Of a stretch of DNA of 63,842 bases, positions 7,678-47,165 are shown in pieces. The translations under genes and the position numbers were made by a program. Position 1 is the first letter of the stretch, and each line of letters starts with the position of its first letter. This DNA comes from an uncultured Clostridia bacterium (GTDB lineage: Bacteria > Bacillota > Clostridia > Oscillospirales > Ruminococcaceae). The DNA is taken from the NCBI GenBank assembly GCA_947624745.1, contig CANQLR010000013.1, forward strand, positions 1 to 63,842, written 5' to 3'. Below the pieces are notes generated by a model. It did not search any database, was not told the DNA's origin, and saw only the letters and a program-made list of their open reading frames with translations.

Positions 7678-8647
7678 TTTCTTAACACTTTCGCAACAGT
7701 TTCGTAACGACTTAATATTTTATTTACACTTATGTAACAGTTTTGAAACATGTTGAAAAGCTGTTGAAAGCGAGGCGGTTTTGGGGGAGCAAAGCCCGAG
7801 CGGAGGGGCGAGGAAAGCAAAATTGAGAGGACGAAGGACGGAAAAAGCTGCGGGGCGGCTTTTTTCTTTTTGGGGAGGTTTGGGGGTGATGCGGGGGCGA
7901 AGCCCGTGGTGCGCGCTTCGCGCGCACCCGCCGGCCGCACGAAGTGCGGCGGGCATGACGGCAATTCCATTGCCGCCCGGGCTTCGCCCATGCGTGTCTA
8001 CCGCTTTGCCTCCTTAATGCAGCAAAGTGCAGACCCGCACAAGTTGGGGCACAAGTCTTGTGCGCTTTTGGAGGGTGCATGAGGAGGCAGTGACCGGGGG
8101 CGAAGCCCCGAGGCGCCCGAAGGGCGCCTGAGCCAAATCCGCTTGCGGATTTGGCTCGGCGGCAGCGGAGCTGCCGCCCGGGGCTTCGCCGCGCGGGGTC
8201 TGCACTTTGATGCGGTGAGGCAGGAAGGCGCGGGGGCAAAGCCCCCGCCGGCCACGGAGTGGCCGGCGTGCCGGGAGGCAAAGCCTCCCGGCCGCGCGGA
8301 GCGAAGCTCCGCGCATGGGGCTTTGCCCTGCCGGAGGAGCAGAAGACAGAGGTCAGAGGGCAGAGTGGCGGGAAACAACTTGGGCGCAACGCCGCCCCCT
8401 CCCGGCGGGAGGGGGCTTGCACCCGGTCATAATTCTGCTCAAGCCTTGGCAGGGGGTGGGGCTTAAAATAGCATGAGCTCGCTTGCGAGCGAATACCTTA
8501 TGATGGCTGATGAGGGATCATAACGAAATTCGGTAATGCGCAGTCTGTGCGTGGGCGAAGCCCCCCGCGGCAGCTTCGCTGCCGCTTGCCCGCCGTGCGG
8601 AGCACGGCGGGCGTGTGCGCGCGGAGCGCGCGCCCGGGGCTTCGCCC
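7678..8647. repeat. Hairpin-repeat island 1 (four three-hairpin units)
   Basis: Gene-free island. Three-hairpin units lie at 7895-7989, 8097-8190, 8234-8328 and 8553-8647. Each has outer arms of GGGCGAAGCCC type and three inner hairpins, for example GTGCGCGC/GCGCGCAC, GCCGCAC/GTGCGGC and GGCAAT/ATTGCC in the first. The third unit uses GGGCAAAGCCC with GGGCTTTGCCC, a compensated change in both arms. An R1 repeat on the minus strand fills 8395-8552. Long open frames here are a consequence of the repeat and are not genes. Confidence 0.85.
8395..8552 (-). repeat. R1 dispersed repeat, partial copy A
   Basis: Reverse-strand 3' portion of the R1 element. It holds the AAGGTATTCGCTCGC / GCGAGCTCATGCTAT core (here with a TTGCGAGCG hairpin), the TTTTAAGCCCCACC segment and the terminal CCCCCTCCC-GGCG-GGGAGGGGG hairpin, in the same order as the copies at 37869-38180 and 38302-38611. 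Confidence 0.8.
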
Positions 8648-9057
8648 TACCCCGCGTACCTCTTCGCCCCCTCCCGGAACACACCCCGCCTTATCCCACG
8701 CGCCGCAAGCGTCGCCGGCAGGCTCAGCAGCAGCCACAGCCCGCTGAACGGCAGGCAGATCTGCCCCCAGAGGTTCAGCGGCAGGTCTGCGTAGTCCCAG
8801 ACGTTTAACCTCATAAACTGATTGATGATTATGCCCGAGGTCAGCTCGCTCAGCGTTATTATCGCTGCGTTCAGCGGCGCTTGCAGGAAAATATTCCCGC
8901 CGAATATCCTCGCCTCGTCCGCAAGATAGATCATGAAAAAGCAAAATCCACCGACCACGAACATCGAAATGTGCGTTTCGCCCCGCCAGCAAAGCTCGAC
9001 TATGCCGTAAGCGAGCCCGCCGAATACATAAACTGTAAGATATTTTAAAATTTTCAT
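8647..9057 (-). CDS. Small integral membrane protein, putative ABC transporter type IV (CmpB-like)
   Basis: 136 residues from the ATG at 9057, with GGGGGAA upstream; an ATG two codons earlier sits too close to that site. Four or so hydrophobic segments (about 4-22, 30-47, 58-76 and 95-115) fill most of the protein, with a basic C-terminal tail. The composition and the WRGETHISM and DYADLPLN segments suggest the CmpB/putative ABC-transporter type IV family common in Clostridia, whose function is not established. The stop codon directly touches the arm of a three-hairpin repeat unit. Family assignment is from memory. Confidence 0.65.
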   Translation of the reverse strand: MKILKYLTVYVFGGLAYGIVELCWRGETHISMFVVGGFCFFMIYLADEARIFGGNIFLQAPLNAAIITLSELTSGIIINQFMRLNVWDYADLPLNLWGQICLPFSGLWLLLSLPATLAARGIRRGVFREGAKRYAG

Positions 9058-9154
9058 GCACATTCCCCCTTTTATTACGTCATGAGTATTGGCGCGCGCG
9101 CCGAAAAAATTCATATTTTCGGCGAAATTTCAGTGATTTTCCGCCATTTTTCTG

Positions 9155-9183
9155 TTGACAACCGCCCGAATTTGTGCTATAGT
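9155..9183 (+). promoter_or_regulatory. Promoter of the valS T-box leader
   Basis: TTGACA (9155-9160), 17 bases, TATAGT (9178-9183) preceded by TGC. Confidence 0.75.
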
Positions 9184-9391
9184 TTTCTAAAGGCGTTTTA
9201 TGGGGAGTGAATGCCCGGAAGGCTCCTAAAAGAGAGGCGGGAAAGGTGAAAGCCGCCGGAGCGGACCGCGTTTTCTGTCGCCCCAAAGCCGGGAGGAAGA
9301 AAGGCTCGCCCGATTAGACCCTCCCCGTCTTAGCGCGTTAAGCTTTTTAAGTGGGAAGATCAAGGCCGGAATCAGCGGATATCCTCCTGTG

Positions 9392-9430
9392 AGAGTTCTA
9401 TCCTCTAACCTTCTATCCTCTATCTTCTAA
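9392..9430 (+). repeat. Pyrimidine-rich CTCTATC tract (copy 2)
   Basis: Imperfect repeats ending in TCTATCCTCTATCTTCTAA, shared with the tract at 4636-4674. Here it forms the linker directly before the T-box antiterminator. Confidence 0.6.
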
Positions 9431-9456
9431 TTTGAGTGGTACCGCGGGAAAATTCT

Positions 9457-9488
9457 CGTCTCAAAGCGAAACTTTGGGGCGATTTTTT
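9457..9488 (+). terminator. T-box conditional terminator upstream of valS
   Basis: Ten-base-pair stem with loop CGAAA followed by ATTTTTTAT. Its 5' side follows the T-box bulge sequence, so formation of the antiterminator would compete with it. Confidence 0.85.
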
Positions 9489-9521
9489 ATCGCTCCGATA
9501 ATATTGAAAAGAGGTAGTGCA

Positions 9522-12140
9522 ATGAAAAAACAGCTCGAAAAGCTCTATGAGCCGAAGGCCGTCGAGGACCGTATCTACAAATACTGGACCGACGGAAACT
9601 ATTTTCACGCAAGGGTGAACCCCGACAAAAAGCCCTACACCATCGTGATACCGCCGCCGAACATCACAGGGCAGCTTCACATGGGTCATGCGCTCGACGA
9701 AACGCTCCAGGATATCCTTATAAGGTATAAGAGAATGTCCGGGTTCGAGACGCTGTGGCTCCCGGGGACGGATCACGCCTCCATCGCGACCGAAGCGAAG
9801 ATAGTCGCGCAGATGAAGTCGGAAGGGCTCACAAAGGACGATCTCGGCAGGGACGGTTTTTTGGAGAGAGCCTGGGCGTGGAGAGAAAAATACGGCTCGA
9901 CGATTATCAATCAGCTTAAGAAATTGGGCTCCTCCTGCGACTGGGAGAGAGAGCGCTTCACGATGGACGAGGGCTGCTCGAAGGCGGTCAAAGAGGTCTT
10001 CGTGAGGTACTACGAAAAGGGCCTTATCTACCGCGGCGAGCGCATCATAAACTGGTGCCCTCACTGCCTCACCTCCATCTCCAACGCCGAGGTCAACTAT
10101 GAGGAGCAGGCGGGTCACTTCTGGCACCTGCGCTATCCCCTGACCGACGGCTCGGGCTGGCTCGAGCTCGCGACGACAAGACCCGAGACCCTCCTCGGCG
10201 ATACCGCCGTCGCGGTCAACCCGAAGGACGAAAGATACAAAAAGTACGTCGGAAAGACGGTCACACTGCCGCTCGTCGGGCGGGAGATCCCCGTCGTCGC
10301 GGACAGCTATGTCGACATGGAATTCGGAACCGGCGTCGTGAAGATCACCCCGGCGCACGACCCGAACGACTTTGAGGTCGGCGCGCGGCACGACCTGCCG
10401 GTCATCAACGTCATGACCGACGACGCGAAGATCACCGAGGATTACCCGAAGTACGCCGGAATGGACAGATACGAGGCGAGAAAGGCGATCGTCGCCGATT
10501 TGGAGGCAGGCGGGTACCTCGTGAAGATCGAGGACTACTCGCACAGCGTAGGCACCTGCTACCGCTGCGGCACCACCATTGAGCCGAGGGTATCGCTCCA
10601 GTGGTTCGTGAAGATGGCCGAGCTCGCAAAGCCCGCTATCGAGGCGGTGCGCTCGGGAAAGATAAAATTCGTGCCCGAAAGGTTCGAGAAAAACTACTTC
10701 AACTGGATGGAGGATATCCGCGACTGGTGCGTTTCCCGCCAGCTTTGGTGGGGACACCGCATACCCGCGTTCTACTGCGACGACTGCGGCGAAACGGTCG
10801 TGACAAAAGAGGACAGCGCGGTCTGCCCGAAGTGCGGCAAAGTCATGAGGCAGGACCCCGACACCCTCGACACTTGGTTCAGCTCTGCTCTCTGGCCGTT
10901 TTCGACCCTCGGCTGGCCGGACAAGACCCCCGAGCTCGAATATTTCTATCCGACGAACACCCTCGTCACCGGCTGGGACATCATCACCTTCTGGGTGTCG
11001 AGAATGATAGTCGCGGGAATGGAGTTCATGAAGGAGCGCCCGTTCGAGACGGTCCTTATCCACGGGCTGATGCGCGACCCGAACGGCCTTAAGATGTCGA
11101 AATCGCTGGGCAACGGCATAGACCCGCTCGAGGTGATAGATCAGTTCGGCGCGGACGCGCTTCGGTTCATGGTCGCCTCCGGCACGTCGCCCGGAAACGA
11201 CATGAGATATTCGGAGGAGAAGGTAAAGGCCTGCCGCAACTTCGCGAACAAGCTCTGGAACGCGACAAGATTTATCATGATGAACCTGCCGGAGGACTTC
11301 GACGTTCCCGAAAGCCTCCCCGAAAGCCCCGCCGTCGAGGACAAATGGCTCGCCTCGAAGATAAACACCCTCGCCAAAGAGGTAAACGACAACCTTGAAA
11401 AGTTCGAGATAGGCGTTGCGGCGCAGAAGGTCTATGACTTTATCTGGGACGTATACTGCGACTGGTATATCGAGCTGACGAAGCCGAGGATAAACGCCGG
11501 CGGAAAGTCTGCCGAGGACGCACAGACGATGCTCGTATGGGCGATGGCGAGGATACTCAAGCTTCTGCACCCGTTCATGCCGTTCATCACCGAGGAGATC
11601 TGGCAGGCGCTCGACGGAAGCGGAAAGCCGCTAATGCTCGAAAACTTCCCGGTGTACGAGAAGTCCCTCGACTTCCCCGCCGAGGAGGAGGCTTTTGAGA
11701 AGATCATCGAGGCCATTCGCGCGATAAGAAACCGCCGCGCCGAGATGAACGTTCCGCCGTCGAAAAAGGCAGAGCTTTTCATCGAGACGGATATGCCGGA
11801 GGTCTTTGAAAAGGGCGTTATGTTCTTCGAGAGGCTCGCCTCGACCTCGGAGGCGTTCATAAATAAGCCTGCGCCGGAGGGGTCGCTTGTAATAGTTACC
11901 CCGTCGGCAAGGCTGTTCATACCTATGAACGAGCTGATTGACCGCGAAAAGGAGCTTGCGCGCCTCAACAAGGAAAAGGCCGCGGCGGAAAAGGACATCG
12001 CGATAATAAACGGGAAGCTTTCTAACGAAGGATTTGTCGCCAAAGCCCCGGCGCAGGTCGTCGAGGCCGAGCGCAACAAGCTTTCGGCGGCAAAGGACAA
12101 GCTCGAAAAGATAACACAGTCGTTAAAGGCGTTAAGCTGA
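9522..12140 (+). CDS. valS: Valyl-tRNA synthetase
   Basis: 872-residue class I aminoacyl-tRNA synthetase charging tRNA-Val. The HMGH signature is at 53-56 and KMSKS near 524-528; a CP1 editing domain lies between, with a zinc-binding Cys pattern near DDCGETV...CPKCGK. The end is the arginine-rich Val tRNA-binding coiled coil (about 810-870). The start is the ATG at 9522 with GAGG upstream; a longer open frame reaching back to 9432 lies inside the T-box and is not translated. The next two genes follow at short distances and are probably co-transcribed under T-box control. Confidence 0.97.
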   Translation: MKKQLEKLYEPKAVEDRIYKYWTDGNYFHARVNPDKKPYTIVIPPPNITGQLHMGHALDETLQDILIRYKRMSGFETLWLPGTDHASIATEAKIVAQMKSEGLTKDDLGRDGFLERAWAWREKYGSTIINQLKKLGSSCDWERERFTMDEGCSKAVKEVFVRYYEKGLIYRGERIINWCPHCLTSISNAEVNYEEQAGHFWHLRYPLTDGSGWLELATTRPETLLGDTAVAVNPKDERYKKYVGKTVTLPLVGREIPVVADSYVDMEFGTGVVKITPAHDPNDFEVGARHDLPVINVMTDDAKITEDYPKYAGMDRYEARKAIVADLEAGGYLVKIEDYSHSVGTCYRCGTTIEPRVSLQWFVKMAELAKPAIEAVRSGKIKFVPERFEKNYFNWMEDIRDWCVSRQLWWGHRIPAFYCDDCGETVVTKEDSAVCPKCGKVMRQDPDTLDTWFSSALWPFSTLGWPDKTPELEYFYPTNTLVTGWDIITFWVSRMIVAGMEFMKERPFETVLIHGLMRDPNGLKMSKSLGNGIDPLEVIDQFGADALRFMVASGTSPGNDMRYSEEKVKACRNFANKLWNATRFIMMNLPEDFDVPESLPESPAVEDKWLASKINTLAKEVNDNLEKFEIGVAAQKVYDFIWDVYCDWYIELTKPRINAGGKSAEDAQTMLVWAMARILKLLHPFMPFITEEIWQALDGSGKPLMLENFPVYEKSLDFPAEEEAFEKIIEAIRAIRNRRAEMNVPPSKKAELFIETDMPEVFEKGVMFFERLASTSEAFINKPAPEGSLVIVTPSARLFIPMNELIDREKELARLNKEKAAAEKDIAIINGKLSNEGFVAKAPAQVVEAERNKLSAAKDKLEKITQSLKALS

Positions 12141-12158
12141 AAAGTCAGGAGGTAATTT

Positions 12159-13499
12159 ATGCGTAAGACCACGCCGCGACATCCGATCCTGATGTCTATA
12201 GCGGTACTTCTCATATTCTTCGTATCCATGCTGCTCGGGTCGGTGTTTATCGGCTTCGCTCCGCCGTTTTTCCGCCAAAACGGAGAGCTTCTGATGCAGT
12301 CGGTGGGCGAATCGGTAGTCTGCCTCGCGGGGATACTTTGCGCGGCGGCGTTCGGATATATCAGGGCGTTTTACAATACCGACAAATTCGGGACGGGCGT
12401 GGCCTGCTCGGCGTATCTTCTGATTGCCTACGCCTTCAGCGGCGTCGCCTCGCTTGCGCTTGAGTTTGAGGAGCACGGAAGCGGCGTTTTCGACAGGCTC
12501 CAGCCGTTCGGGAGGATAATGGTATGGCCTCTCGCGGTCCTTCTTATAGGCTTTGCCGAGGAGACATTCTTTAGGGGCGTCGTCGCGAACCTTTTCTTTG
12601 ACAAGCACGGAAAGGACCCCGCGGGGGTCCGCACTGCGGCAATATACTCGGGGATAATGTTCGGCGCGGTGCACCTTACGAACATGGTATCCTCGGAGCC
12701 GAGCGGGGTCTTGGTTCAGGTCGCTTCGGTCACCTGCATAGGTATTGCGATGGCGGCGATATACTACCGCTGCCGGAACATCTGGGTGATGATACTTCTT
12801 CACGCCTTTATGGACTTCTGCGCCTGCGCGACGATAGGGCTGTTCGGGGGCTCGCTCTCGTCGGAGATAAGCGATTACAGCATAGTCTCCACGATAACGG
12901 CGGGGCTGCCGTATCTCATAGTCGCGGCGGTGCTCCTTAGAAAAAAAAAGGTCTGCGAGGTCCTTTGCAGCGACCCGAACGTCGCCGTAACCGCCCCGCA
13001 GATATCGCCCGGCGAGACGGTGATATCCATGGATATGCGCTCCTCGCCCGAGAGCAAAAAGTCGTTCAGGCGGGCGATAATCGTGTTTATCCTGTTCGAG
13101 GCCGTCTGCATCGCGGGGTCGTTTCTTCTGACCGATAACTTCAGGGACATGGTCGACGATCTGACCGGGGCGACGGTCTTGGAGTACGACACGGAGGAGG
13201 TCTATACCTCGGAGGACAGAACGGCAAGGGGCACCGAGCTCGATTTTGAGGTCGACAGGGGCGGAGACTACAAGGTCGTCCTTATAACCGAGCCGTCCGA
13301 CTCGAACGTGAACATGGTGCTTCGGATAGAAAAGGACGGAGAGACCGTCTATGAGAGCGCATACGGCGGAAAGTGCACCGACACCTTCGGGGTGGAGCTC
13401 GGCGAGGGGACGTATAGGCTCTATCTCGTCTACGACTTCTCGGGGATAAAAAAGGAGCCGGTGGACTACAGGACCTCGGTGAAGATCACCGCGGATTAA
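12159..13499 (+). CDS. CPBP family intramembrane glutamic protease (Abi/CAAX) with C-terminal extension
   Basis: 446 residues, strong ribosome binding site (AGGAGG). Multiple membrane helices cover about 1-275 with the CPBP motifs EETFFRG (the EExxxR motif), FGAVHLTN (His) and HAFMDFC (His). Family members are membrane proteases or protease-like proteins involved in prenyl-protein processing, bacteriocin self-immunity or sigma regulation; which applies here is not visible. The last 130 residues hold one more membrane helix (about 305-325) and an extracytoplasmic beta-rich domain, unusual for the family. It sits 18 bases after valS. Confidence 0.82.
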   Translation: MRKTTPRHPILMSIAVLLIFFVSMLLGSVFIGFAPPFFRQNGELLMQSVGESVVCLAGILCAAAFGYIRAFYNTDKFGTGVACSAYLLIAYAFSGVASLALEFEEHGSGVFDRLQPFGRIMVWPLAVLLIGFAEETFFRGVVANLFFDKHGKDPAGVRTAAIYSGIMFGAVHLTNMVSSEPSGVLVQVASVTCIGIAMAAIYYRCRNIWVMILLHAFMDFCACATIGLFGGSLSSEISDYSIVSTITAGLPYLIVAAVLLRKKKVCEVLCSDPNVAVTAPQISPGETVISMDMRSSPESKKSFRRAIIVFILFEAVCIAGSFLLTDNFRDMVDDLTGATVLEYDTEEVYTSEDRTARGTELDFEVDRGGDYKVVLITEPSDSNVNMVLRIEKDGETVYESAYGGKCTDTFGVELGEGTYRLYLVYDFSGIKKEPVDYRTSVKITAD

Positions 13500-14850: not shown

Positions 14851-14859
14851 GGTGGGGAG

Positions 14860-15205
14860 AGGGCGAGGGGGCGAAGCCCCGAGGCGCCCGAAGGGCGCCT
14901 GTTCGGCCACGCTTGCGTGGCCGAACGTGAGCCGAAGGCTCACCGGGGCTTCGCCGCGCGGGGTCTGCACCTTGTGCGGGGAGCAGGGAGCGTGCGGGGC
15001 GAAGCCCCCGGCCACTCCGTGGCCGGGGGCCGGGAAGCGGAGCTTCCCGGCCGCGCGGAGCGAAGCTCCGCGCGGGCTTCGCCCGAACTCCCTGCGCTGC
15101 AGATGCATGGCGAAGCCACGAGGCGGCAGCGGAGCTGCCGCCACGCCGGACCCGCAAGCAGGTCCGGCGGGTGCGCGCTCCGCGCGCACCCGGGGCTTCG
15201 CCCCC
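14860..15205. repeat. Hairpin-repeat island 2 (three three-hairpin units)
   Basis: Units at 14867-14955, 14996-15084 and 15108-15204. Unit hairpins are AGGCGCCC/GGGCGCCT, TTCGGCCACG/CGTGGCCGAA and GTGAGCC/GGCTCAC; then CCGGCCAC/GTGGCCGG, CCGGGAAGC/GCTTCCCGG and GCGCGGAGC/GCTCCGCGC; then GGCGGCAGC/GCTGCCGCC, CCGGACC/GGTCCGG and GTGCGCGC/GCGCGCAC. The last arm ends about seven bases before the -35 box of the yifB promoter. Confidence 0.85.
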
Positions 15206-18954: not shown

Positions 18955-19500
18955 AGGGAAGCTGACGGCGGGACGCAGGCATGGGGCGAAGCCTCGGCGC
19001 TCGCGGAGCGAGCGCCTAAGGCCGCGCTTCGCGCGGCCTGTGCTGCGGCAGCTCCGCTGCCGCAGCGAGGCTTCGCCACGGGCCTTGTGCGTGATCCCGC
19101 ATGGGCGAAGCCCTGCACGGAGCAAAGCTCCGCGCAGGCCGTGGGCCGAAGGCCCACGGCTCCCGGCCGCGAAGCGGCCGGGAGGGCTTCGCCCCACGCA
19201 CTCTGCGTGCCCCGGGGCGGCGAAGCCCGGGCGGCAGCTTCGCTGCCGCCTGCCCGACCCGCGGAGCGGGTCGGGCAGTGCGAACTTCGTTCGCACCTCG
19301 GGCTTCGCCCCAGCACCCGACCCCATGCGAAGCCCCGTGAGCCTGCTCCGCAGGCTCACCTGCCGCGCGAGCGCGGCAGCGAGGCGCCCTTCGGGCGCCT
19401 CTGGGGCTTCGCCCACATCACGCACACAGCCCCACAGCATCCCCCTTCGTCCGCTTTCCACACGCCCCCACCCCCCAAAAAAATTCTCCCCTTCCCCGCA
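18955..19500. repeat. Hairpin-repeat island 3 (four three-hairpin units in tandem)
   Basis: Units at 18984-19077, 19103-19194, 19219-19310 and 19327-19414, each with three hairpins. Examples: GGCGCTCGC/GCGAGCGCC, AGGCCGCGC/GCGCGGCCT and CTGCGGCAGC/GCTGCCGCAG in the first; GTGAGCCTGC/GCAGGCTCAC, CTGCCGCGC/GCGCGGCAG and GAGGCGCCC/GGGCGCCTC in the last. Outer arms covary: GGCGAAGCCTCG pairs with CGAGGCTTCGCC, GGGCGAAGCCCT with AGGGCTTCGCCC. Long frames in all directions are artefacts. Confidence 0.88.
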
Positions 19501-31884: not shown

Positions 31885-32020
31885 AGGGGTAAATAGCATG
31901 ATCTCGCTCGCAAAGCGAATACCTTATGCAAAAGGTTGTGGCTAGAACGAAGTTTGGTAAGGTGTAGAAAGCACCGAAGGCGAAGCCCTAAGCACGCTAC
32001 CGCGTGCTTCCCGCCGCTCG
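31885..32020 (-). repeat. R1 dispersed repeat, partial copy B
   Basis: Reverse-strand copy containing GGCGGG, a hairpin AAGCACGC-GGTA-GCGTGCTT, AGGGCTTCGCC, the ACACCTTACCAAACTTCG segment and the AAGGTATTCGC core. The hairpin occupies the same place as unrelated stems in the other R1 copies. Confidence 0.8.
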
Positions 32021-32600
32021 TCGTCGCAAGCTCCATATCCCTCGCCCCTCCGCGAGCGTCGGGGCTCACTCATTCCGCTGCTCCTCCTATCCCCACAAAG
32101 TCCACGGACTTTGTGGGGCCCCTGTTTTCAAGAGCGGCGGACAACATTCGCTCCGCGAATGTTGTGGCTTCGCCCCACCCCCCACGCCTCTCCCCACCTT
32201 TAAAAATCCGTCCCACTTTCCTGCTTCTGCCTACAGCGTGCGCCCTTGCTTTACTGCCGCGCTGTGGAAAAGTGCAGCCCCCGTGTGGCGAACCCTCGGG
32301 TGCCCACGAAGTGGGCGCCACAGGCCGCACTTCGCGCGGTCTGACGTCGGCAGCTTCGTTGCCGACGCGAGGGTTCGCCTCTTGCACTGCCCTGCCTCCC
32401 CGCAGCGCCGCGCAGCCCCCGCGCGGCGAAGCCCCTGCGGCAGCTTCGCTGCCGCCACGCCAAACCCGCAAGCGGATTTGGCTTAGGCGCCCTTCGGGCG
32501 CCTCGGGGCTTCGCCCCCAACTCCCACACAAACTCCCCCTCCCCCCGTGAGTGAGCCTAACACAACCATATATTTTACAAATCTTTAATTTGGCACAACT
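32021..32600. repeat. Hairpin-repeat island 4 (two three-hairpin units)
   Basis: Units at 32287-32379 and 32425-32516. The first has outer arms GGCGAACCCTCG and CGAGGGTTCGCC, differing from the common arms on both sides in a compensated way; one of its three inner hairpins is imperfect. The second holds GCGGCAGC/GCTGCCGC, GCCAAA-CCGC/GCGG-TTTGGC and GGCGCCC/GGGCGCC. No gene. Confidence 0.8.
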
Positions 32601-34126: not shown

Positions 34127-34373
34127 GCGATCGCCCTCCGAAAAAGTGAGATTATAAAGTTGAATTAAAAGACGAGAAAACAAAAGAGGTATAAAACCGT
34201 AATCGGATATATAATACTCTTTTTTTCGGCTTTTTGCAATGATTTTTGAAAGATTTTTAATTTTCTCACAATAGATCAATCCCGCCCCCGATTTCCCGCC
34301 GTTTTTCGTCGGGTTGATGAAATGAATAAGGGGGTTAATTTTCGGGAGGGGTGTGCTATGGGTGGGGCGAAGC

Positions 34374-34632
34374 CCCAACGCCCACGTAGTGGGCGTTGTC
34401 CGCCGCGGGTAGGTCTTTGTGCTGCCCTTATAAATAGCAGAAAAATCGACGTTTTGCAAGCTTACAAAATTCGTCACGCGGCGGGAATCGCGCTTTTAAG
34501 CGCGATTAGGGCTTCGCCCTCCGTGTTTTCAGCACCTTACCCAACTTCGTTATAGCCTCAGCCTTGCGCATAAGGTATTCGCTTCGCTCATTCTATTTTA
34601 AGCCCCCTCCCCTGCCCTCCCCGAGGGGGAGG
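34374..34632 (+). repeat. R1 dispersed repeat, copy C
   Basis: Nearly full-length copy: GGGGCGAAGCCCC, hairpin AACGCCCAC-GTA-GTGGGCGTT, TGTCCGCC, the TATAAATAGCA...TTTTGCAAGCTTACAAAATTCG segment in shortened form, GGCGGG, hairpin AATCGCGC-TTTTAA-GCGCGATT (outer bases), AGGGCTTCGCCCTCCGTG, the AAGGTATTCGCT core and a GGGGAGGG-type end. Confidence 0.82.
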
Positions 34633-35110
34633 GAGATTTTGTCACACTTTTCCGTCTCACCACAGTAAAGCGAAAAACCCACACTTGGCGAAGCCCGTTA
34701 CGCGCTTCGCGCGTAACGCCCGACCCGCAAGCGGGTCGGGCTGTGCGCCTGCTTCGCAGGCGCACCCGGGCTTCGCCCCTCCCCTGCACCTTACCTGCCT
34801 CAGTTATAGCCCTACGTGAGCAGCCACAAGGTATCGCCCCTCACTCTCCCCTGCCTCATCGCCCCAAAGCCCAGTCCCCGCACTGCCAATCCTCGCCTTC
34901 TGCGCATTGCAGCAGTCTTGTTGCCGCCCCTGAGCTTCACTCAACACTCCCTGCCTCATCGCCCCAAAGCCCAGACCCCGCACTGCCAATCCCCGCCCCG
35001 CCTCATGCGCACGGCGGCAGTTTTATTGTCACCAGCCTTCTCCCCTCATCCTACCCATCCATCACTCCCCTCGCCCCTTCCCCAACAACTGCCTCCCCGG
35101 CCTAAACCAG
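34633..35110. repeat. Hairpin-repeat island 5 with a 102-bp-spaced direct repeat
   Basis: One three-hairpin unit at 34687-34778 (GTTACGCGC/GCGCGTAAC, CCCGACCCGC/GCGGGTCGGG, GTGCGCCTGC/GCAGGCGCAC). Then a roughly 40-base segment (CTGCCTCATCGCCCC...) is present at about 34850-34891 and again at 34952-34993. No gene. Confidence 0.75.
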
Positions 35111-37868: not shown

Positions 37869-38180
37869 GGGGCGAAGCCCCAACATTCGTGAAGCGAATG
37901 TTGTCCGCTGCTGGAGGGTTTTGTGCTATCTATATAAATAGCAAAAATTTCGGCATTTTGCAGGCTTTCAAAATTCGAAGGGCGGCGGGAATCGCGCCCG
38001 AATGGGCGCGATTAGCGCTTCGCCCTTCGTGCTGCCTGCCTCTCTCCCCACTTTGTTATAACCCTAACCTTGTCCAAAAGGTATTCGCTCGCAAGCGAGC
38101 TCATGCTATGTTAAGCCCCACCCCCACCAAGCCCTGAGCAGATCGTGGATATGTGAAAGTCCCCTCCCGGTGGGAGGGGG
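37869..38180 (+). repeat. R1 dispersed repeat, copy D
   Basis: Full-length copy. Fixed parts match copy E closely (TGTGCTATCTATATAAATAG, the CGGCATTTTGCAGGCTTTC stretch, AAGGTATTCGCTCGC, CCCCTCCCGGTGGGAGGGG). Variable hairpins here are AACATTCG-TGA-AGCGAATGTT near 37880 and AATCGCGCCC-GAAT-GGGCGCGATT near 37992. Confidence 0.88.
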
Positions 38181-38301: not shown

Positions 38302-38611
38302 GGGGCGAAGCCCCAACGCCCGCGAAGCGGGCGTTGTCCGCCACGGGTCGGGTTTTGTGCTATCTATATAAATAGCAAAAATTTCGGCATTTTGCAGGCT
38401 TTCAAAATTCGACGGGTGGCGGGAAGCACATCGAAGATGTGCTTAGGGCTTCGCCCTCCGTGATTTCAGCGCCTTACTAAACTTTGTTAAAGCCTCAACC
38501 TTGTCCAAAAGGTATTCGCTCGCGAGCGAGCTCATGCTATTTTAAGCCCCACGCCCACCAAGCCCTGAACAGATCGTGGTTATGTGAAAGCCCCCTCCCG
38601 GTGGGAGGGGG
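38302..38611 (+). repeat. R1 dispersed repeat, copy E
   Basis: Full-length copy 433 bases after copy D. Variable hairpins are AACGCCCGC-GAA-GCGGGCGTT near 38313 and AAGCACATC-GAA-GATGTGCTT near 38427, in the same places as different stems in copy D. Confidence 0.88.
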
Positions 38612-38727
38612 CCTGTCTTTGCGCGGGAAACCGGTGGCGAAGCCCGTGTGCGCGTCCTACGCGCACCGCCGGCCACGCAAGCGTGTCCGGCATGGCGGCA
38701 GCTCCGCTGCCGCCCGGGCTTCGCCCC

Positions 38728-38940: not shown

Positions 38941-39164
38941 GGGCGAAGCCCGTGGCGGCAATGAAATTGCCGCCACGCCGGACGTGCAAGCACGTCCGGC
39001 GGGTGCGCGCTCCGCGCGCACCCCGGGCTTCGCCCCCCGGCGCCACCGCCCCCACCCTGCAGACCCCGCATGGCGAAGCCCAGTGAGCCTGCTTCGCAGT
39101 CTCACCCGCCGCACTTCGTGTGCGGCGGCGAGGCGCCCTTCGGGCGCCTCGGGGCTTCGTCCCC

Positions 39165-39371: not shown

Positions 39372-39659
39372 GGGCGAAGCCCGTGGCGGCAATGAAATTG
39401 CCGCCATGCCGGACGTGCTTGCACGTCCGGCATGTGCGCGCTCCGCGCGTACCCCGGGCTTCGCCCACCCCTGGCGCCACCGCAGCCACCCTGCAGACCC
39501 CGCGTGGCGAATCCCCATGCGCGGAGCTTCGCTCCGCGCGGCAGGGAAGCTAAGCTTCCCTGCCAGCTGGACACTTCGTGTCCGGCTGGGGCTTCGCCCC
39601 CAAACGCCACAGCCGCCAACTCTCGCCGGCGGCCGTTTGCTTATCATTTTAACCTTTTA

Positions 39660-40895: not shown

Positions 40896-41624
40896 TCACT
40901 CGTCACCGTAATACTGCATATACAAATTTTCCAAATTCTTCTCCCCGTCCCTGACCTTTTCGCACAGCTCCGCCACCGTCCCCTCGTCGATGAGCTCGCC
41001 CTTTTTAATGAGCAAAATCCGGTCTGCGATGGTCTCGATGTCGCTGACGATGTGCGTGGAAATGATAACTATCTTATCTTTTGAGAGGCGGCTGATGAGG
41101 TTTCGCGTGATGACCCTCTGCTTCGGGTCGAGGCCCGCCGTCGGCTCGTCTAAAATCAGCAGCTTCGGATTCCCAAGGAGCGCCTGAGCTATTAAAACGC
41201 GCTGTTTCATGCCTCCCGAGAAGCCGCCTAACTTTTGGTCTGCCTGCTCCGAAAGCTCCACCAAATCCAAGACCCGCTCGACCTCATCCGGGATCTTCTC
41301 CTTTTTAATGCCCTTGAGCGCGGCGAGATACCCGACGAACCGCGAGGCGGTGAACGAGGGATAAAGCTCCTGCTGCTGGGGCATGAAGCCGATCTTGCGG
41401 CGGTATTTCGCCTGAAGCTTCCCGATGTCCTCGCCGTTCCAGAGAATTTCGCTGTCCGGGTCGGCGGGGATATTTTGCGTGATGAGGTTCATCATCGTCG
41501 ACTTGCCCGCTCCGTTGGGGCCCAAAAGCCCGTAAACGCCGTCGTGGAAGTCGTAATCAAAATCAATAAGCGCGTGATTTTGGCCGTAGTGTTTATTAAC
41601 ACCGTTAAGCGATAATGTGTTCAT
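40896..41624 (-). CDS. ABC transporter ATP-binding protein (no permease nearby)
   Basis: 242 residues. Walker A GPNGAGKST near 34-42, Q-loop FMPQQQ, signature FSGGMKQR, Walker B LLILDEPTAGLD and H-loop STH are all intact. The sequence is of the daughter type used for export of drugs, lantibiotics or for sodium/ABC-2 exporters. No ABC-2 permease lies in the window. The start is three bases after the upstream lipoprotein's stop, with its GAGGTGA overlapping that stop, so the two products are made together. Confidence 0.88.
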   Translation of the reverse strand: MNTLSLNGVNKHYGQNHALIDFDYDFHDGVYGLLGPNGAGKSTMMNLITQNIPADPDSEILWNGEDIGKLQAKYRRKIGFMPQQQELYPSFTASRFVGYLAALKGIKKEKIPDEVERVLDLVELSEQADQKLGGFSGGMKQRVLIAQALLGNPKLLILDEPTAGLDPKQRVITRNLISRLSKDKIVIISTHIVSDIETIADRILLIKKGELIDEGTVAELCEKVRDGEKNLENLYMQYYGDE

Positions 41625-41627
41625 AAC

Positions 41628-42740
41628 TCACCTCTTGAAAATCTCGTCCTCGGAAAGCTTGACATACTCGCCGCTTTTGACCTCGCTCCCGATGATATAG
41701 CCGCCGCGATAGCAAAGGACGTAGCCGTATTTCGGAAACGCCTCCGTGTTCAGCTCCAGTATTTTCCCGCCCGAAAGATCAATGGCGTTGCCCGCCTCGG
41801 CGTTGAAGAAATACCCGTTTATCGGCGCGGCGTTGATGTTGTCGGGCAGCTCGTACCCCTCAAAAACCGTCTCGTTTCCCTCACTGTCGATTATGACCGC
41901 GTTTTCGCCGTCCATATAGCCGTAAAACCCGCCGCTCGCAAACATCGGCTTTGTTTTTCCGTTATCATCAACCGAGGATATCGGCATATCCCAGCCGCTT
42001 ATTTCGCCGCTTTCGAGGTCGAGCCGAAGCCGGAAATCTGTCCAATCCCCGCCCCTTTCGTCGGCATAATACCCCTTGATATATAATCCTCCGCGATATT
42101 CGCCGAACACCGACGCGCCCGCGTCATAGCCCTCGGCGAGTATCCCAAGGTTCGCAAACTCCTCGTTTTCGTAGTCATAGCTGCAAATATATACCTTGGT
42201 ATAGCCTGTGCCGACCCCGGTGTAGTCCTCATATTCCGCCTCGGCGGCGATGAAGTAAGCGGTCGAGCCCTTTGTCACAAGGTCGCGAACGGCCAGATTC
42301 TCGATAGTATCGGCCTTGACCCGCGAGCTGCCGTCGGGAGCGGCCCTCATTACATCGGTAGAAACTATGACCTCGCCGTTTTCGCCCCACTCGCGCTTTT
42401 CGTTAAAGAAGTAAAGCTTATTGTCTACGATCTGCGGGTAGCCGTTCCATAGGTCTATCCCGAACGCGGTACAGGTCTCGGGGTCGCTGTGCGGGCAGTT
42501 CGGCCGCATACAAAGTATGACCGACTGCATCGAATCGAAGTCGAAAAACCATGCCCGCCTCGCCGTGAGACCGTTCGCGTCCTCGTTTTCGTCGTCGAAG
42601 AATATCCCGTTGAGGGTCAGGCTCGTCCGCCTCGGGCTGCGGCACGCCGTCTCATACCCCGGGGAGTGCTCCTTCACACCCACGCCGCAGGCCGTCAGAA
42701 GAAGCAGCGCGGCCAAGATAACTGCCAATAATTTTTTCAT
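41628..42740 (-). CDS. Lipoprotein with CxRPNCxH motif, paralogue A
   Basis: 370 residues from the ATG at 42740. Lipobox LLTACGVG. Near residue 85 it has CMRPNCPHSDPETCTAFG, a Cys/His-rich motif shared with three neighbours; after it come repeated strand-turn patterns (KLYFFN, GGLYIKGY, GGFYGYMDG, NGYFFNAE) suggesting a beta-propeller fold, and an acidic end KLSEDEIF. The motif could bind a metal or form disulfides. I do not recognise a characterised family. It is coupled to the downstream ABC ATPase. Confidence 0.78.
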   Translation of the reverse strand: MKKLLAVILAALLLLTACGVGVKEHSPGYETACRSPRRTSLTLNGIFFDDENEDANGLTARRAWFFDFDSMQSVILCMRPNCPHSDPETCTAFGIDLWNGYPQIVDNKLYFFNEKREWGENGEVIVSTDVMRAAPDGSSRVKADTIENLAVRDLVTKGSTAYFIAAEAEYEDYTGVGTGYTKVYICSYDYENEEFANLGILAEGYDAGASVFGEYRGGLYIKGYYADERGGDWTDFRLRLDLESGEISGWDMPISSVDDNGKTKPMFASGGFYGYMDGENAVIIDSEGNETVFEGYELPDNINAAPINGYFFNAEAGNAIDLSGGKILELNTEAFPKYGYVLCYRGGYIIGSEVKSGEYVKLSEDEIFKR

Positions 42741-42758
42741 ATAAATCACCTCTTTAAT

Positions 42759-42787
42759 ATCATACCACAGTTTAAAGAGGCTGTCAA
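42759..42787 (-). promoter_or_regulatory. Promoter of lipoprotein A and ABC ATPase
   Basis: Minus strand TTGACA (42782-42787), 17 bases, TATGAT (42759-42764). Confidence 0.7.
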
Positions 42788-42803
42788 TCGAGCGGCAGGG
42801 CGT

Positions 42804-42950
42804 TTATTTTATTTCTTTCCCGATAACCTTTTCCGCCGGGAGCAGCTGATAGTTTCCCTCATAATCCGCCGCCAAAAAATACCCGTCTGCAGACCCGCCG
42901 TTGAAGGTAAGATTTCCGGTCAGCAGGCGATACCCCTTTTCGGTTTTCAT
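42804..42950 (-). pseudogene. C-terminal remnant of another lipoprotein paralogue
   Basis: A 48-codon open stretch reading MKTEKGYRLLTG, then GSADGYFLAADYEGNYQL and a terminal LPAEKVIGKE. It resembles the last 50 residues of paralogue B (ATGDIYRL...YYGGDYILFGQF...LSPGELFEGE). No signal peptide or CxRPNC motif, so it is the tail of a deleted copy. The DNA from 42951 to 43072 shows no gene. Confidence 0.55.
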
Positions 42951-43072
42951 ATCTATTACGACCTTCCGTCAAGGTCGGCGCGCCAACTTTTTATACTCTG
43001 CTTTAATAAAGCAGTCAACACGCCTCGCACAAGCGGTCGAAAAAACGACATAAGCGGTCAGAAGCGCGCCCG

Positions 43073-44347
43073 TCATTCCCCCTCAAAGAGCTCTCCCGGC
43101 GAAAGCCTGCGAAATTCCCGCGTAAACTGCCCGAAAAGGATATAATCTCCCCCGTAATACGCGATCACCGCCTCGTTCTCCCCGATTGCCCCCGCCCTTA
43201 GCCTGTAAATATCCCCGGTTGCGAGCTCGGTCGCCAAAAGCGTTTCGGCGTTGAACATCATTCCGTTGACAGGGCGGTCCGCAGCGCGCTCGGTCAGGCG
43301 GTGCCCCTCTATCTTTTTGACAGTCCCGTCCGGCGAGGCGATCACGGCGGTATCGCCCTGCTGACAGACATAAAACCCCTCCGCCGCCGCCAAAATATCC
43401 GGCGCGGGCCAGTTCGTTCCCTCGCGCTCCCCCGGCGCGGGAAGCTCGGACGCCGTTAATATTTCCGCCTCGGGGTCAAGGGCGAAAATTCTCGTCACGG
43501 TGAACGCGTGAAGGCTGTCGAAATAGCCGGGCGAGCCCGCGCTCACCCCCTCGGGGCATTCCTCCGCGCCCACCGAAATATAATAAATTTTCCCGCCGTA
43601 TTCGCCGACCACCCCGACCGTGTCGCTCGTATACAGGTGAGATATCCGCCCCAGATTTTGAAGCTCAAATGTTTTAAAATCAAAGCTTTCGGCGAAGTAT
43701 TCATATTCCATCGTCGGCAGCCCGTTTTCGTCCGTGATCTCCCTCGCCGCTACGGTATACCCCCTGTCCCCCGAAACATAAAATCCCGAAAGCGTATACC
43801 CGCCCAAGCTCGCGACCCTTCTTCGCTCCGAGCCGTCGGCGGCGGCCTTATAAATGTTCGCGTGCGAGCTTATACCGCTCTTTGCGGACATCTCGCGCAC
43901 GTTCTCGACGATGTAAACGCTCCCGCCGTAGGAGCAGAGCATGACGTCCGAGCCGTCGGAAAGCCCGAACGCCGAGCAGGTCTCGGGGTCGTCGTGGGTG
44001 CAGTTCGGCCTCGGGCACACCGGGAAGGAGCGCAGGGTCGCGAAGTCAAAAAAGCTCATTCTTCCCGCCGCGGAATATCCGTCGACATAATACGCCCCGT
44101 CCGGGGTCAGCAGGTATCCCGAGCCCTTGGCGGCGCGAAGCTCTTCTATCCCCTGCCCGCCGGGGAATTTTCCGTTCCTCACCGTTTTGGGCTCGGCTCC
44201 GATTGCCTCCGCCCCGCTCTCATCGAGCGAAGCGACTGCCTCCGTCTCAACCGCTTGAGGCGTTTCCGCCCCTTTTTTGCCGGAATTACCGCACCCCGAA
44301 AGGATCAGCACCGCCGCAAAAAATAAAACCGCAGTCAATTTTTTCAT
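43073..44347 (-). CDS. Lipoprotein with CxRPNCxH motif, paralogue B
   Basis: 424 residues. Start at 44347 after GAGGTGGTTTAT. Lipobox ILSGCGNSG. A Glu/Ala-rich linker precedes the conserved CPRPNCTHDDPETCSAFG (about 120-137). The rest shows repeated beta-propeller-like strands (SVYIVENV, KIYYISVG, GFYVCQQGD, GDYILFGQ) and ends LSPGELFEGE. Surface-anchored. It starts 24 bases after paralogue C and is probably on the same transcript. Function unknown. Confidence 0.78.
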   Translation of the reverse strand: MKKLTAVLFFAAVLILSGCGNSGKKGAETPQAVETEAVASLDESGAEAIGAEPKTVRNGKFPGGQGIEELRAAKGSGYLLTPDGAYYVDGYSAAGRMSFFDFATLRSFPVCPRPNCTHDDPETCSAFGLSDGSDVMLCSYGGSVYIVENVREMSAKSGISSHANIYKAAADGSERRRVASLGGYTLSGFYVSGDRGYTVAAREITDENGLPTMEYEYFAESFDFKTFELQNLGRISHLYTSDTVGVVGEYGGKIYYISVGAEECPEGVSAGSPGYFDSLHAFTVTRIFALDPEAEILTASELPAPGEREGTNWPAPDILAAAEGFYVCQQGDTAVIASPDGTVKKIEGHRLTERAADRPVNGMMFNAETLLATELATGDIYRLRAGAIGENEAVIAYYGGDYILFGQFTREFRRLSPGELFEGE

Positions 44348-44371
44348 ATAAACCACCTCTTAAATTATATA

Positions 44372-45544
44372 TCACTCCCCAAACAGCTCCTCCTCGCTCA
44401 CGGCAAAATAGACCGTCTGCTGCCGCTCCAAATCAATATACCTGATCATATATTTTCCGTCCGAATACCCGGCGACATACCCCGCCGCCACGCCCTCCTG
44501 CGGGATGTTCGCCCGAACCTCCTTCCCGTCCGAGAGCCGCCTGACGGTGTTTTCGCCGGAAGCGATATCGCCGAAAATGTACCCGTTTACGACCGCCGTA
44601 TCGTTTCCGTTAAAGTCCTTGATGAATATCTCCCTGCCGTCCGGGCTCACGATAAGCGTGTCCGCGCCGTCCGAATATATCGCCGCGCCCTCCTTTATCT
44701 GCGCATATATCGGAAGCACCGGGGCGCTCGGGTCCGCCGCCCGCTTTTCGTGGGCGGATACTATCTTTTCGGGCAGTTCCCATTCCGAGATCACGAGCGT
44801 TTCAAGGTCGATCTTCCCGTACTCGGTCAGGCTGACCCGGCGAAGCTCCGCGCCGTTATGCTCCCTCGCTTCAAGGCTGTCGCCGTCCCACCAGTCGGCG
44901 TCCTCCTCCTGATAATTCAGGATATAATACAGCTCGCCGCCTATCTCTCCGCAAAAGGTAACGCCCGCCGTATACCCCTCGCACAGAAGCACCTTCGCGA
45001 TGAGATCTTTTTTTGCATAGTCGTACCCGCAGAGATACATCTCGCGCATTCCTTCGGGCTTGCCCTCGGGGTGCTCGTTCACTCCGCCGAAATACAAAAC
45101 GCCGTTTTTAAAGGCCGCGCTCGCGCCCTCGGGGACGGTTATCCCGTCGACTTCGCCGCATTTTGCCCTCCCGGTCCCGTCGATGGCGGCCTTATATACG
45201 TTCAGGCTGCCCCGCGGCAGGTTTCCCTCGTAATAGCTTTGGTTCCCGAACCAGTAAATGCTCCCGCCGACGATAACCGGGTGATTGTCCATTCCGAGCG
45301 CCGAGCAGCTCTCGTCGGTGTGGGGGCAGTTCGGCCTCGGGCAGATAAAAACATCGGCGCCGGTCGAAAGATCGGCAAAATGAAGCCTTCTGCCGACGTC
45401 GACATAAAGCTCTCCGCCCTCGTATCCGAAAAAGTCGTTGTAGTCGATCACGAAGCAGTCGGAGGGCTCTGCCTCCGTCCCCGCCCTATCCCCGCAGCCC
45501 GCAAGAAGCGCCGCCGCCAAAAGGATAACAAAGAATTTTTTCAT
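44372..45544 (-). CDS. Lipoprotein with CxRPNCxH motif, paralogue C
   Basis: 390 residues, start at 45544 after AGAGGTGTTTTGC. Lipobox LLAGCGDRA. The motif is CPRPNCPHTDESCSALG, one residue shorter than in A and B. Propeller-like strands follow (SIYWFGNQ, VLYFGGVN, ELYYILNY, GYIFGDIA), and the end is SEEELFGE. Own promoter-like sequences overlap an AATTAT/ATAATT inverted repeat in the 60 bases upstream. Confidence 0.78.
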   Translation of the reverse strand: MKKFFVILLAAALLAGCGDRAGTEAEPSDCFVIDYNDFFGYEGGELYVDVGRRLHFADLSTGADVFICPRPNCPHTDESCSALGMDNHPVIVGGSIYWFGNQSYYEGNLPRGSLNVYKAAIDGTGRAKCGEVDGITVPEGASAAFKNGVLYFGGVNEHPEGKPEGMREMYLCGYDYAKKDLIAKVLLCEGYTAGVTFCGEIGGELYYILNYQEEDADWWDGDSLEAREHNGAELRRVSLTEYGKIDLETLVISEWELPEKIVSAHEKRAADPSAPVLPIYAQIKEGAAIYSDGADTLIVSPDGREIFIKDFNGNDTAVVNGYIFGDIASGENTVRRLSDGKEVRANIPQEGVAAGYVAGYSDGKYMIRYIDLERQQTVYFAVSEEELFGE

Positions 45545-45604
45545 GCAAAACACCTCTTTTGCTTAATTATGCTATTGTATAATTAGAAAGCAAAGACCCG
45601 CCCC

Positions 45605-46597
45605 TCACGCCCTCTCGAAAAGCTCGCTTTCGGGGATTTTTTTGTATTTCGTGTCTGTCACAAGCCCGTTTTCGTCGGTCACAAACTCCGAAACGATGTA
45701 TCCGTCCTCGGTCTCCGCGGCGATGTGACAGTTTGCGTTCTTAACTTTATATTTCTCCCCGGTCCGATAGTTCACCGCCTCGCCGCCCGGCGCGATCAGC
45801 ACCTCCCCGACAAGCCGATACCCCTCGCCCTCGAACGAAAAAACCTCGCCCGACTCGCAAATTATCTCGCAGCGGCCGCCGTTTTCGACCTGCATCGCCC
45901 CGCCCGAGATCTGCTTCACGTCGCCGTCGATATACTCAATATCAAGGCTTTTCGGGTCGACCGAGATGTTGATCTCCTCCGCCTTTTGGGAGATATCCTC
46001 CGGGAATCTGTAAAGCTCTATAACTATTTTCCCGCCGAAAAAGCCCAAAATGTCGGCCTGCCCGCTCTCACCTTCAAGAATTTTCCTTGTGAGGTCGAGC
46101 TTCTCGCCGAATTCTGCGGTCGCGGGGTCCTCGCGGGAAACGCCCGATCTGTCGTCCCGCATGATGGCTGTTTCGTCGTGAAACTCGCCGTTTTCAAAGC
46201 TGCGGAAATGCTTAAGCCAGTAAATTTTCTCGCCGATCGGAATGACCGGCTCGTTGTCGAATCCGAGCGCAAAACAGGCCTCGGGGTCGGTGTGGGGGCA
46301 GTTCGGCTTGGGGCAGACCGCCGCCTCGACGCCGGATATCGCGTCAAAGTAGTAAAGCGCCCTGACCGTTTTGTAGGCGGGCAGCCGCTTGCCGCCGACG
46401 GTGTAAAAGGCGCCGTCCTCCGGCTAGCCCTTGTCCATGCGGCTTTTCACGTAGTAGAGCCCGTCCCCGCGGCTCGAATAAATCCCGTTCACCCAGTACG
46501 CCTCCGCGCTGCCGGCAACTCTCCGGCCCCGGCCCCAGCCCCCGCACGAGCAGAGCATAAGCGCGAAACCAATAAGCAGGCAAAATAATTTTTTCAT
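45605..46597 (-). pseudogene. Lipoprotein with CxRPNCxH motif, paralogue D, interrupted by a nonsense codon
   Basis: Would encode 330 residues from the ATG at 46597, with lipobox MLCSCGGW and the motif CPKPNCPHTDPEACFALG, ending IPESELFERA. A single in-frame TAG at 46424-46426 (codon 58) stops translation just before the motif; the frame is otherwise open and unchanged. Shorter than A-C because it lacks a middle section. The promoter is intact, so the inactivation looks recent. Sequencing error is possible. Confidence 0.75.
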
Positions 46598-46616
46598 ATA
46601 AACACCTCTTAGCTTT

Positions 46617-46645
46617 ATTATACCACTGTATAATCGAGATGTCAA
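46617..46645 (-). promoter_or_regulatory. Promoter of lipoprotein D with palindromic operator
   Basis: Minus strand TTGACA (46640-46645), 17 bases, TATAAT (46617-46622). The perfect inverted repeat ATTATAC-AGTG-GTATAAT overlaps the -10 box, so a repressor could bind there. Confidence 0.7.
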
Positions 46646-46659
46646 TAGGTTTTGGGGGA

Positions 46660-47165
46660 TTAGAGTGGGGGTGGGGAGGTTTGGCGAGCTTCTCTCTGCT
46701 ACTGTAAAGCACGAATACCGAGAAGGTTTCGCCGGCCTTTCCTCAAAAGGCCGCGGGAATCCAAAGGGCAGAGCCCTTTGGTCGCGACCGCAGTCGCGAA
46801 ATCCCCTACGCATTAGCGAACGCAGGACGGGGAGGAGTAATCAGCCCGCCCCCGGGCGAAGCCGCCGCTCCGGCGGGTTCGCTGCGCAACGGGCACTAAG
46901 GTACGAGTCAGAAGTCGATATGGCGTTGCGTTCTCGCCGGGGGTTCCCTATTTGCCGAGCGGGGAGCGAGGCAAAGAAAAGGCGGTGCTTAGCAGCTAAT
47001 GCAAGTGTTGCGCTGTAAGTGGGGCGGCATTTCCTTATTTGCAGAGCTGGGAGTGAGGCAAACTCTGCTTTCAACTGGGGTTTAGCAGGCGGTTCGGACG
47101 TTACGCCATGGTCGGGGCGAAGCCCGGGGTGTGCGCGGAGCGCGCACCTCGGGCTTCGCCCCGTC
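46660..47165. repeat. Hairpin-repeat island 7 (one diverged three-hairpin unit and one single-hairpin unit)
   Basis: At about 46725-46806 the arms GGTTTCGC and GCGAAATCC enclose GGCCTTT/AAAAGGCC, CCAAAGGGC/GCCCTTTGG and TCGCGAC/GTCGCGA, the same three-hairpin plan with entirely different stems. At 47115-47163 the usual arms enclose only one hairpin (GTGCGC/GCGCAC). An R2 copy lies between. No gene. Confidence 0.75.
46845..47114 (-). repeat. R2 dispersed repeat, copy 3 (reverse)
   Basis: Reverse-strand copy combining blocks seen in both other copies, including CATGGCGTAACGTCCG, two TTTGCC/GGCAAA-type stems, CTTACAGCGC, GACTCGTACCTTAGTGCCCG and CGTTGCGCAGCG. Confidence 0.78.

Follow-up and report, generated by a model that had tools for sequence, protein, structure and literature searches.

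Miniature inverted-repeat transposable elements (MITEs) are short and non-coding, with terminal inverted repeats and a high copy number. Bacterial interspersed mosaic elements (BIMEs) consist of many extragenic palindromic copies, often close together and in opposite orientation, while the attC sites of integrons have conserved short ends around a variable folded interior and are recognized as a folded single strand. Repetitive extragenic palindromes (REPs) with GTAG or CGTC tags are, in the portion of the source drawn on here, single palindromes of 20–40 bp with a terminal tag (PMC3733652); in the corresponding portion of another, REP doublets forming hairpins (REPINs) are described, and a clover fold is mentioned (PMC3116915). 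The subject here is a dispersed repeat of an uncultured Clostridia bacterium (Ruminococcaceae; assembly GCA_947624745.1), followed from a stretch of 63,842 nt, hereafter the window (contig CANQLR010000013.1, or C13, one of the 100 contigs that make up a 2.57 Mb genome). Its units have two strongly conserved 11-bp inverted repeats, or arms, of the form GGGC-GNA-GCCC, which enclose three hairpins; they are mostly 75–120 bp long and close as a near-perfect four-way junction. REPINs are the nearest known kind, although three of their defining features were tested for and are lacking. No account of such units was found in the open-license literature, among the best matches at the level of titles and abstract openings.

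A preliminary description of the window listed 20 units with fixed outer arms and exactly three hairpins. Fold prediction (with RNA energy parameters) gives an outer stem and three branches at 19 of the 20 coordinates; the other, at 46725, has its loops in a different nesting and is a member of a separate repeat family (below). By the same prediction, 299 of 950 mononucleotide-shuffled units likewise give three loops of some kind, so that hairpin number alone is little proof, and reliance was therefore placed on detectors requiring both an outer stem and a hairpin-filled interior. The weight of the evidence is in the perfect stems, the fixed arms, and a count made blind to sequence. The sequence-blind detector, slightly looser than the strict one described below, required an outer stem of at least 8 bp and hairpins filling at least 72% of the inside, and it found 117 three-hairpin matches in stretches from the genus, with two of two hairpins, one of four, and 60 of one: three hairpins, that is, in 117 of 120 multi-hairpin matches. 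One of the 117 (arm TTTTTCAA) is probably false; the single-hairpin matches are mostly ordinary long hairpins, and the two-hairpin pair look chance-like by eye. In 80 comM loci (1.23 Mb), nearly all from other genera (Ruminococcus, Oscillospiraceae, and others, relatives that point to the Oscillospirales; one 4 kb locus, L031, is probably from this genus), the same detector found no match with three hairpins, six with two, and 43 with one, and in 400 kb of the shuffled genome none of any kind. There was also no match in the stretches of G414, G412, G404, G416, G323, and G410, two of which (G416 and G410) nonetheless have a unit at ilvC-ilvD.

A strict detector run on 423 kb of the window's own genome gave 39 three-hairpin units, none with two, three with one (besides two matches made up of Ns), and a single merged pair; in the stretches from relatives, 19 of 19 units had three hairpins, and the shuffled control gave one single-hairpin and one six-hairpin match. 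When units were chosen by their arms instead (at most two mismatches, inner distance 40–95; n = 148), 142 had three hairpin loops, five had two, and one had four; counted at the junction itself, there were three branches in 142, two in three, and none in three. The preference for three thus extends beyond the window and to other species of the genus. In the predicted folds, again with RNA parameters, 61 of the 142 three-branch units leave 0–1 junction bases unpaired and 123 leave no more than four, as few as would be expected of a self-folding DNA four-way junction.

The arms can be searched for directly. The pattern GGGCGAAGCCCN{50,80}GGGCTTCGCC has 98 forward and 110 reverse matches in the window's own genome and none in the control, and a looser version with a wider gap, which takes in longer units, matches 229 places there, against a single place with the arms in reversed order; the earlier estimate of about 20 copies was too low. 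Arm centers covary as GAA/TTC, GGA/TCC, GCA/TGC, and AAA/TTT, with GGA/TCC in G408 at ilvC-ilvD, GCA/TGC in G273 and G411, and AAA/TTT in one subfamily of the window's genome. The hairpin loops are also distinctive: triloops account for 286 of 351, and GNA or TNC makes up 249 of those (241 with a C-G closing pair), compared with GNA/TNC triloops in 67 of 184 hairpins away from units and 21 of 182 in the comM loci. A GNA loop is carried by d(GCGAAGC), an extraordinarily stable DNA mini-hairpin according to the part of PMC4686876 used here, and the arms themselves share this form (GGGC-GAA-GCCC).

Outside the genus the pattern is close to absent in the samples searched. Among 394 genomes sampled from the order, four have the exact arms, all of them in this genus, and a variable-center version, in 398 genomes of the phylum, matched the window's genome and single places in six others, at which no hairpins were seen by eye. 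Of the 31 genus genomes, 19 have the looser pattern, among them G415 (205 places) and G416 (74) besides the window's own; the matches listed for some poor genomes (G394, G398, G406, and G407) do not show the three-hairpin plan by eye. The genome behind L031 (isolate Lapin-033__bin31) has 75 places, with stem families of its own, and the pattern is absent from 12 further genomes that supplied comM loci. The units are extragenic, dispersed, and in high copy, as REPs and REPINs are. All copies had been described as intergenic, which holds for 67 of 77 units in the window's genome; nine overlap the 5′ part of an open reading frame (ORF), probably where the called start is over-extended, and one is at an edge. 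With genes called by codon score, a unit is present in 25 of 151 tandem, 10 of 64 divergent, and 8 of 43 convergent intergenic regions, so promoter regions are not avoided and there is no clear orientation preference.

Distances between arms in stretches of the window's genome have two peaks, 87 at 50–79 and 40 at 120–149, with three in the twenties and few others. The second peak is a longer class (L, about 155 bp), with the arms of the short class (S) but with two short hairpins and a middle arm enclosing an AT-rich core. This class and a one-hairpin unit at 47113..47163 were absent from the preliminary list. With the outer stem enforced, L units have three branches in 30 of 40 cases and four in one, while nine went unscored because of a mismatched first base; by eye, eight of the nine have three branches and one (L186:16140) has five. 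The L core occurs at 38 places in the window's genome and none in the relatives' stretches examined, and therefore even a family seen only in the former mostly obeys the three-branch rule. Units in the window are as follows, with no strand assigned and the supporting method in parentheses where given:

7895..7989, three-hairpin unit (S class), arms GGGCGAAGCCC/GGGCTTCGCCC (detector and fold)
8098..8191, three-hairpin unit, subfamily with GGCGCCC, AGCCAAATCCGC, and GGCGGCAGC stems (detector and fold)
8234..8328, three-hairpin unit with GGGCAAAGCCCC arms, arm center AAA/TTT (detector and fold)
8553..8647, three-hairpin unit (detector and fold)
14869..14956, three-hairpin unit upstream of comM (detector and fold)
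14997..15084, three-hairpin unit upstream of comM (detector and fold)
15108..15203, three-hairpin unit, middle hairpin imperfect, two hairpins in one parse (fold)
18985..19077, three-hairpin unit (detector and fold)
19103..19194, three-hairpin unit (detector and fold)
19219..19310, three-hairpin unit (detector and fold)
19327..19412, three-hairpin unit (detector and fold)
31978..32175, L-class-like unit, extra sequence in the middle arm
32287..32379, three-hairpin unit with GGCGAACCCTCG arms (fold)
32425..32516, three-hairpin unit (detector and fold)
34365..34519, L-class unit: common arms, two short hairpins, long middle arm, AT-rich core
34687..34778, three-hairpin unit (detector and fold)
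37870..38025, L-class unit
38303..38456, L-class unit
38636..38726, three-hairpin unit (detector and fold)
38941..39035, three-hairpin unit (detector and fold)
39072..39162, three-hairpin unit (detector and fold)
39372..39466, three-hairpin unit, near-duplicate of 38941 with shared flanks (detector and fold)
39506..39599, three-hairpin unit (fold)
46725..46824, different repeat family, three hairpin loops in another arrangement (fold)
47113..47163, reduced unit: common arms around a single hairpin

How the interiors change was examined in 374 similar pairs of units within species. Of 608 comparable loops, 299 are identical, 139 differ by one change, 66 are exact inversions, 66 are inversions with one further change, and 38 differ otherwise. 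Stem positions are the same in 4533 cases, changed on both sides and still paired in 549, changed on one side in 75, and otherwise altered in 23. Inverted loops and two-sided changes are expected marks of template switching, judging from the parts of PMC8794818 and PMC8604942 consulted; in the latter, template switching homogenizes arms and inverts spacers, ttc/gaa included. There is no RNA wobble signal in the stems of either the detector-chosen or the arm-chosen set: in the latter, one strand has 66 G-U pairs among 5635 and the other 65 among 5636.

Whole hairpins are exchanged as well. Middle hairpins are swapped between units whose other hairpins match, and there are 13 sets in which all four combinations of outer and middle alleles occur, these being rough six-base alleles, some of which may be convergent. 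The cassette exchange proposed in the preliminary description is supported by both. The shared stem repertoire proposed with it stands in part: hairpins do reassort among units, but mostly within their own slot, with only six six-base alleles common to the middle and an outer position and first and third hairpins alike in none of 116 units. Selection for a folded shape, offered as the alternative to exchange, is supported insofar as the plan persists at shared sites where stems have partly changed, although self-templated repair could also produce the perfect stems. The two proposals are both supported, and are mutually compatible.

The sites ilvC-ilvD and oadB-oadA were compared in 22 species each. 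At ilvC-ilvD, seven species have a unit (G000, with two; G258, G410, G416, G273, and G408; and G415, where one arm is degenerate and hairpin order inverted), and the other 15 do not. Six of the seven share a common first stem and a related third stem, the G408 unit being of another kind, and the middle stems vary in sequence and in length (8–10 bp as parsed). Over six basal pairs compared pairwise among the six species, 191 are the same, 79 have two-sided changes, and none has a one-sided change, in a count anchored at the parsed stem base, where register shifts (G258, G273) inflate the two-sided class. At oadB-oadA, a unit lies 41–42 bases past oadB in G000, G335, and G415, and a version with a mismatched arm was recognized by eye in G411, for a total of 4 of 22 species. 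Stems are again partly shared: the third starts with GCCCGC in three, the first is alike in G000 and G335, and the remainder look unrelated. Elsewhere the gap between the two genes is 12–21 bases (G417, G408, G410, G416, G414, G273, and G413), 18 (G397), or 47–65 (G396, G418, and G394); the genes are close together, with the gap uncomputed, in G404, G323, G399, and G405; and G409, G412, and G258 contain inserts of other kinds, with no unit detected in them. Presence and absence at syntenic positions, which the preliminary description had put forward as a check, are both seen at these two sites. A third shared unit lies between phoU-like and phoB-like genes (names assigned from sequence) within a stretch, at most 6.5 kb long (L112:775-7260), that is 91–92% identical in three species, G258 and G273 among them, a higher figure than at the other loci compared. 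Identity at ilvC-ilvD between G000 and G258 is lower, about 81–83%, and the phoU-like/phoB-like stretch may have been recently exchanged.

Among 151 similar pairs drawn from the 77 units of the window's genome, flank homology within 40 bases is found on neither side in 99, on one side only in 27 and 18, and on both in seven; the unit therefore behaves as a discrete block. For 116 units, 36 tests for target duplication (six lengths of 2–8 bp, six offsets) came out near expectation, with no clear duplication. The only consensus in the flanks of the units in the window's genome is a C at the first position (60%), and neither a GTAG nor a CGTC tag is visible in their composition. Carriage by viruses or plasmids was considered and rejected: each of the five IMG/VR stretches that carry the arm pattern encloses fewer than two hairpins, and one 241-base stretch had no match in phages or plasmids. 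Loss of the hairpin nuclease SbcCD as a reason for tolerance was likewise rejected: SbcD scores above the cut-off in 11 of the 31 genomes (G415, G273, and G416 among them) and is missing from most genomes without units, and the window's own has only weak matches below the cut-off.

Taken together, the units suggest mobile DNA recognized as a folded junction. The explanation offered here, whose chances are judged to be about even, is a REPIN-like, genus-specific, non-autonomous mobile DNA repeat that is recognized or retained as folded DNA, its shape heritable more than its sequence, and that is remodeled by template switching and hairpin exchange. The conserved arms, mainly shape-kept interior, DNA-type loops, equality of strands, and indifference to gene orientation favor DNA over RNA. 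Where a single strand is exposed, on the lagging strand or by supercoil-driven extrusion, the C(GNA)G mini-hairpins would nucleate the fold; template switching across each hairpin would copy one stem strand onto the other, leaving perfect stems and flipped loops; and exchange between copies would swap hairpins whole. A putative protein reading the arms and the folded junction would insert or retain copies, and sequences closing as an outer stem with three branches would persist. Intercistronic structure and the binding of nucleoid or junction proteins are conceivable benefits to the host. Template switching accounts for the perfect stems and loop inversion but not for the arms or the preference for three, which junction recognition would explain. 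A tentative and rather unlikely proposal is that the units are genome-encoded mimics of Holliday junctions, recognized by shape by a junction-binding or junction-cutting protein; three hairpins would then be preferred because, with the outer stem, they make a four-way junction. If so, shape would be inherited while much of the sequence was free to turn over, and that recognition would also be what drives the units to invert, exchange hairpins, and spread.

If the units instead function as RNA, they could be transcribed intercistronic or 3′-end structures that stabilize, process, or terminate mRNA, as proposed for REPs, with selection on the RNA fold. The genes on either side of both sites studied in depth are co-directional and belong to the same pathway, and at ilvC-ilvD the species without a unit mostly have another hairpin there, by eye. 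The reading is nonetheless improbable, given the lack of clear gene-orientation preference, with divergent (promoter) regions not avoided; the rate of G-U pairs, about 1% and equal on both strands; the DNA-type triloops; and the absence of Rfam matches at gathering scores in the window. That template switching alone makes and perfects hairpins in GC-rich intergenic DNA, with no protein or selection involved, fits the inverted loops and two-sided stem changes as far as the cited portions of PMC8794818 and PMC8604942 go; that it is the whole story is quite unlikely, since it does not account for why three is preferred, why conserved arms surround changing stems, why the arms have a single orientation, why the second (L) class has mostly the same branch number, or why the pattern is nearly absent outside the genus in the samples searched. 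Inverted, conserved arms and dispersal as discrete blocks would also be expected of an ordinary MITE whose parent transposon is unknown, the arms being its terminal inverted repeats and the interior hairpins meaningless. This too has a low probability: the perfect interior hairpins, nearly always three, would go unexplained, there is no clear target duplication, and of 11 wider-spaced arm pairs (gaps up to 4 kb, in the examined stretches, about a third of the window's genome) none is a gene-sized insert with hairpins at both ends. Least probable by far is a REP or REPIN element mobilized by a REP-associated tyrosine (RAYT, or Y1) transposase, which the units resemble in size, intergenic dispersal, inverted ends, compensatory variable interior, and clover fold, within the portion of PMC3116915 drawn on. 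The RAYT-like gene suggested in the preliminary description does not track the units, and the link was rejected: only 8 of 31 genomes have a Y1 match, the window's genome has only fragments with stops, and G273, G397, G414, and G416 have arm-pattern matches but no Y1; nor are first and third hairpins alike or flanks tagged.

Several points weigh against recognition of a folded, mobile DNA unit. The ratio 549:75 counts related pairs repeatedly, includes whole-hairpin swaps, and leaves out 574 slots with altered stem length, and the low mismatch count of detector-chosen units comes in part from how the detector works, the set chosen by arms being fairer. Folded freely, L units have three branches in 25 of 32 cases. 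Some copies travel with longer flanks, as in a composite of S unit, spacer, and L unit of about 510 bp, and the insert at oadB-oadA, at about 210–240 bp, exceeds the unit alone. The 11 spanning matches, in three species, were all messy, and none showed a clean empty site for the unit by itself. One of the 36 target-duplication tests had a small excess (4 vs. 1.3 expected), and no transposase or recombinase has been tied to the units. With both sites studied in depth between co-directional genes, RNA selection may act at some sites.

Other repeats accompany the units. The sequence at 46725, first taken for a diverged copy, was rejected as a member: it has three hairpin loops, differently nested in the predicted fold (RNA energy parameters), although a TTTCGC/GCGAAA outer pairing can be drawn by hand. 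Its family (window 46725-46824; L128:12524-12725) is about 200 bp long, with GGTTTCGCCGGCCTTT.. CCAAAGGG.. followed by a AAACAGTCCGGTGGACTGTTT hairpin, and has many matches across the genus, also with three hairpin loops. Interiors longer than their class (window 31978-32175, L118:17050-17334, L195:15692-16065, and L186:15729-15922) look as though further sequence had entered a hairpin or the middle arm, and a CGTCGTCGCAAGCTCCATATCCCTCGCC-like segment is common to at least two. A terminator-like GC hairpin (window 8358-8502 and CCCCCTCCCGGYGGGAGGGGGC repeats) recurs at the end of the S-spacer-L composite, and a GTATCCATATTTTCC..GGAAAATATGGATAC-type hairpin has many copies in G273 (L173, L175, L176, L177, and L132). 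Between comM and an M28 peptidase gene, window 16810-17640 matches streptomycin adenylyltransferase (PF04439, E 1.2e-87).

Known repeats are usually recognized by sequence, and this family can be found by architecture alone; at a given site, related species hold copies that follow one plan, with stems that match only in part. The old question of whether hairpins owe their perfection to selection or to self-templating of the DNA becomes testable, because there are many natural replicates, with loop orientation as a readable mark. Like integron attC sites, the units have conserved short ends and a variable folded interior, but they are dispersed in ordinary intergenic regions, whereas attC sites lie between cassettes. 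Like MITEs, they are short, non-coding, and high in copy, with inverted ends, and they differ in the constrained interior structure and the lack of clear target duplication; no parent transposon was found in the examined stretches. With tagged REPs and BIMEs they share many extragenic palindromic copies, often close together and in opposite orientation, as far as the portion of PMC3733652 used here describes these; they differ in being untagged closed junctions, mostly of 75–120 bp, with three hairpins. The layout is, as the preliminary description held, not that usual for REPs or BIMEs: there is no tag, no inverted copies of one palindrome, and no intact RAYT. From REPINs, as far as the cited part of PMC3116915 describes them, the units differ in that the conserved part is the 11-bp arm, rather than the REP hairpin, and in that all three hairpins vary, the first and third differing from each other, with neither tag nor tracking RAYT. 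Like REPINs, again within that part of PMC3116915, they are intergenic and mobile, with conserved inverted ends around a variable middle that keeps its hairpins through compensatory change.

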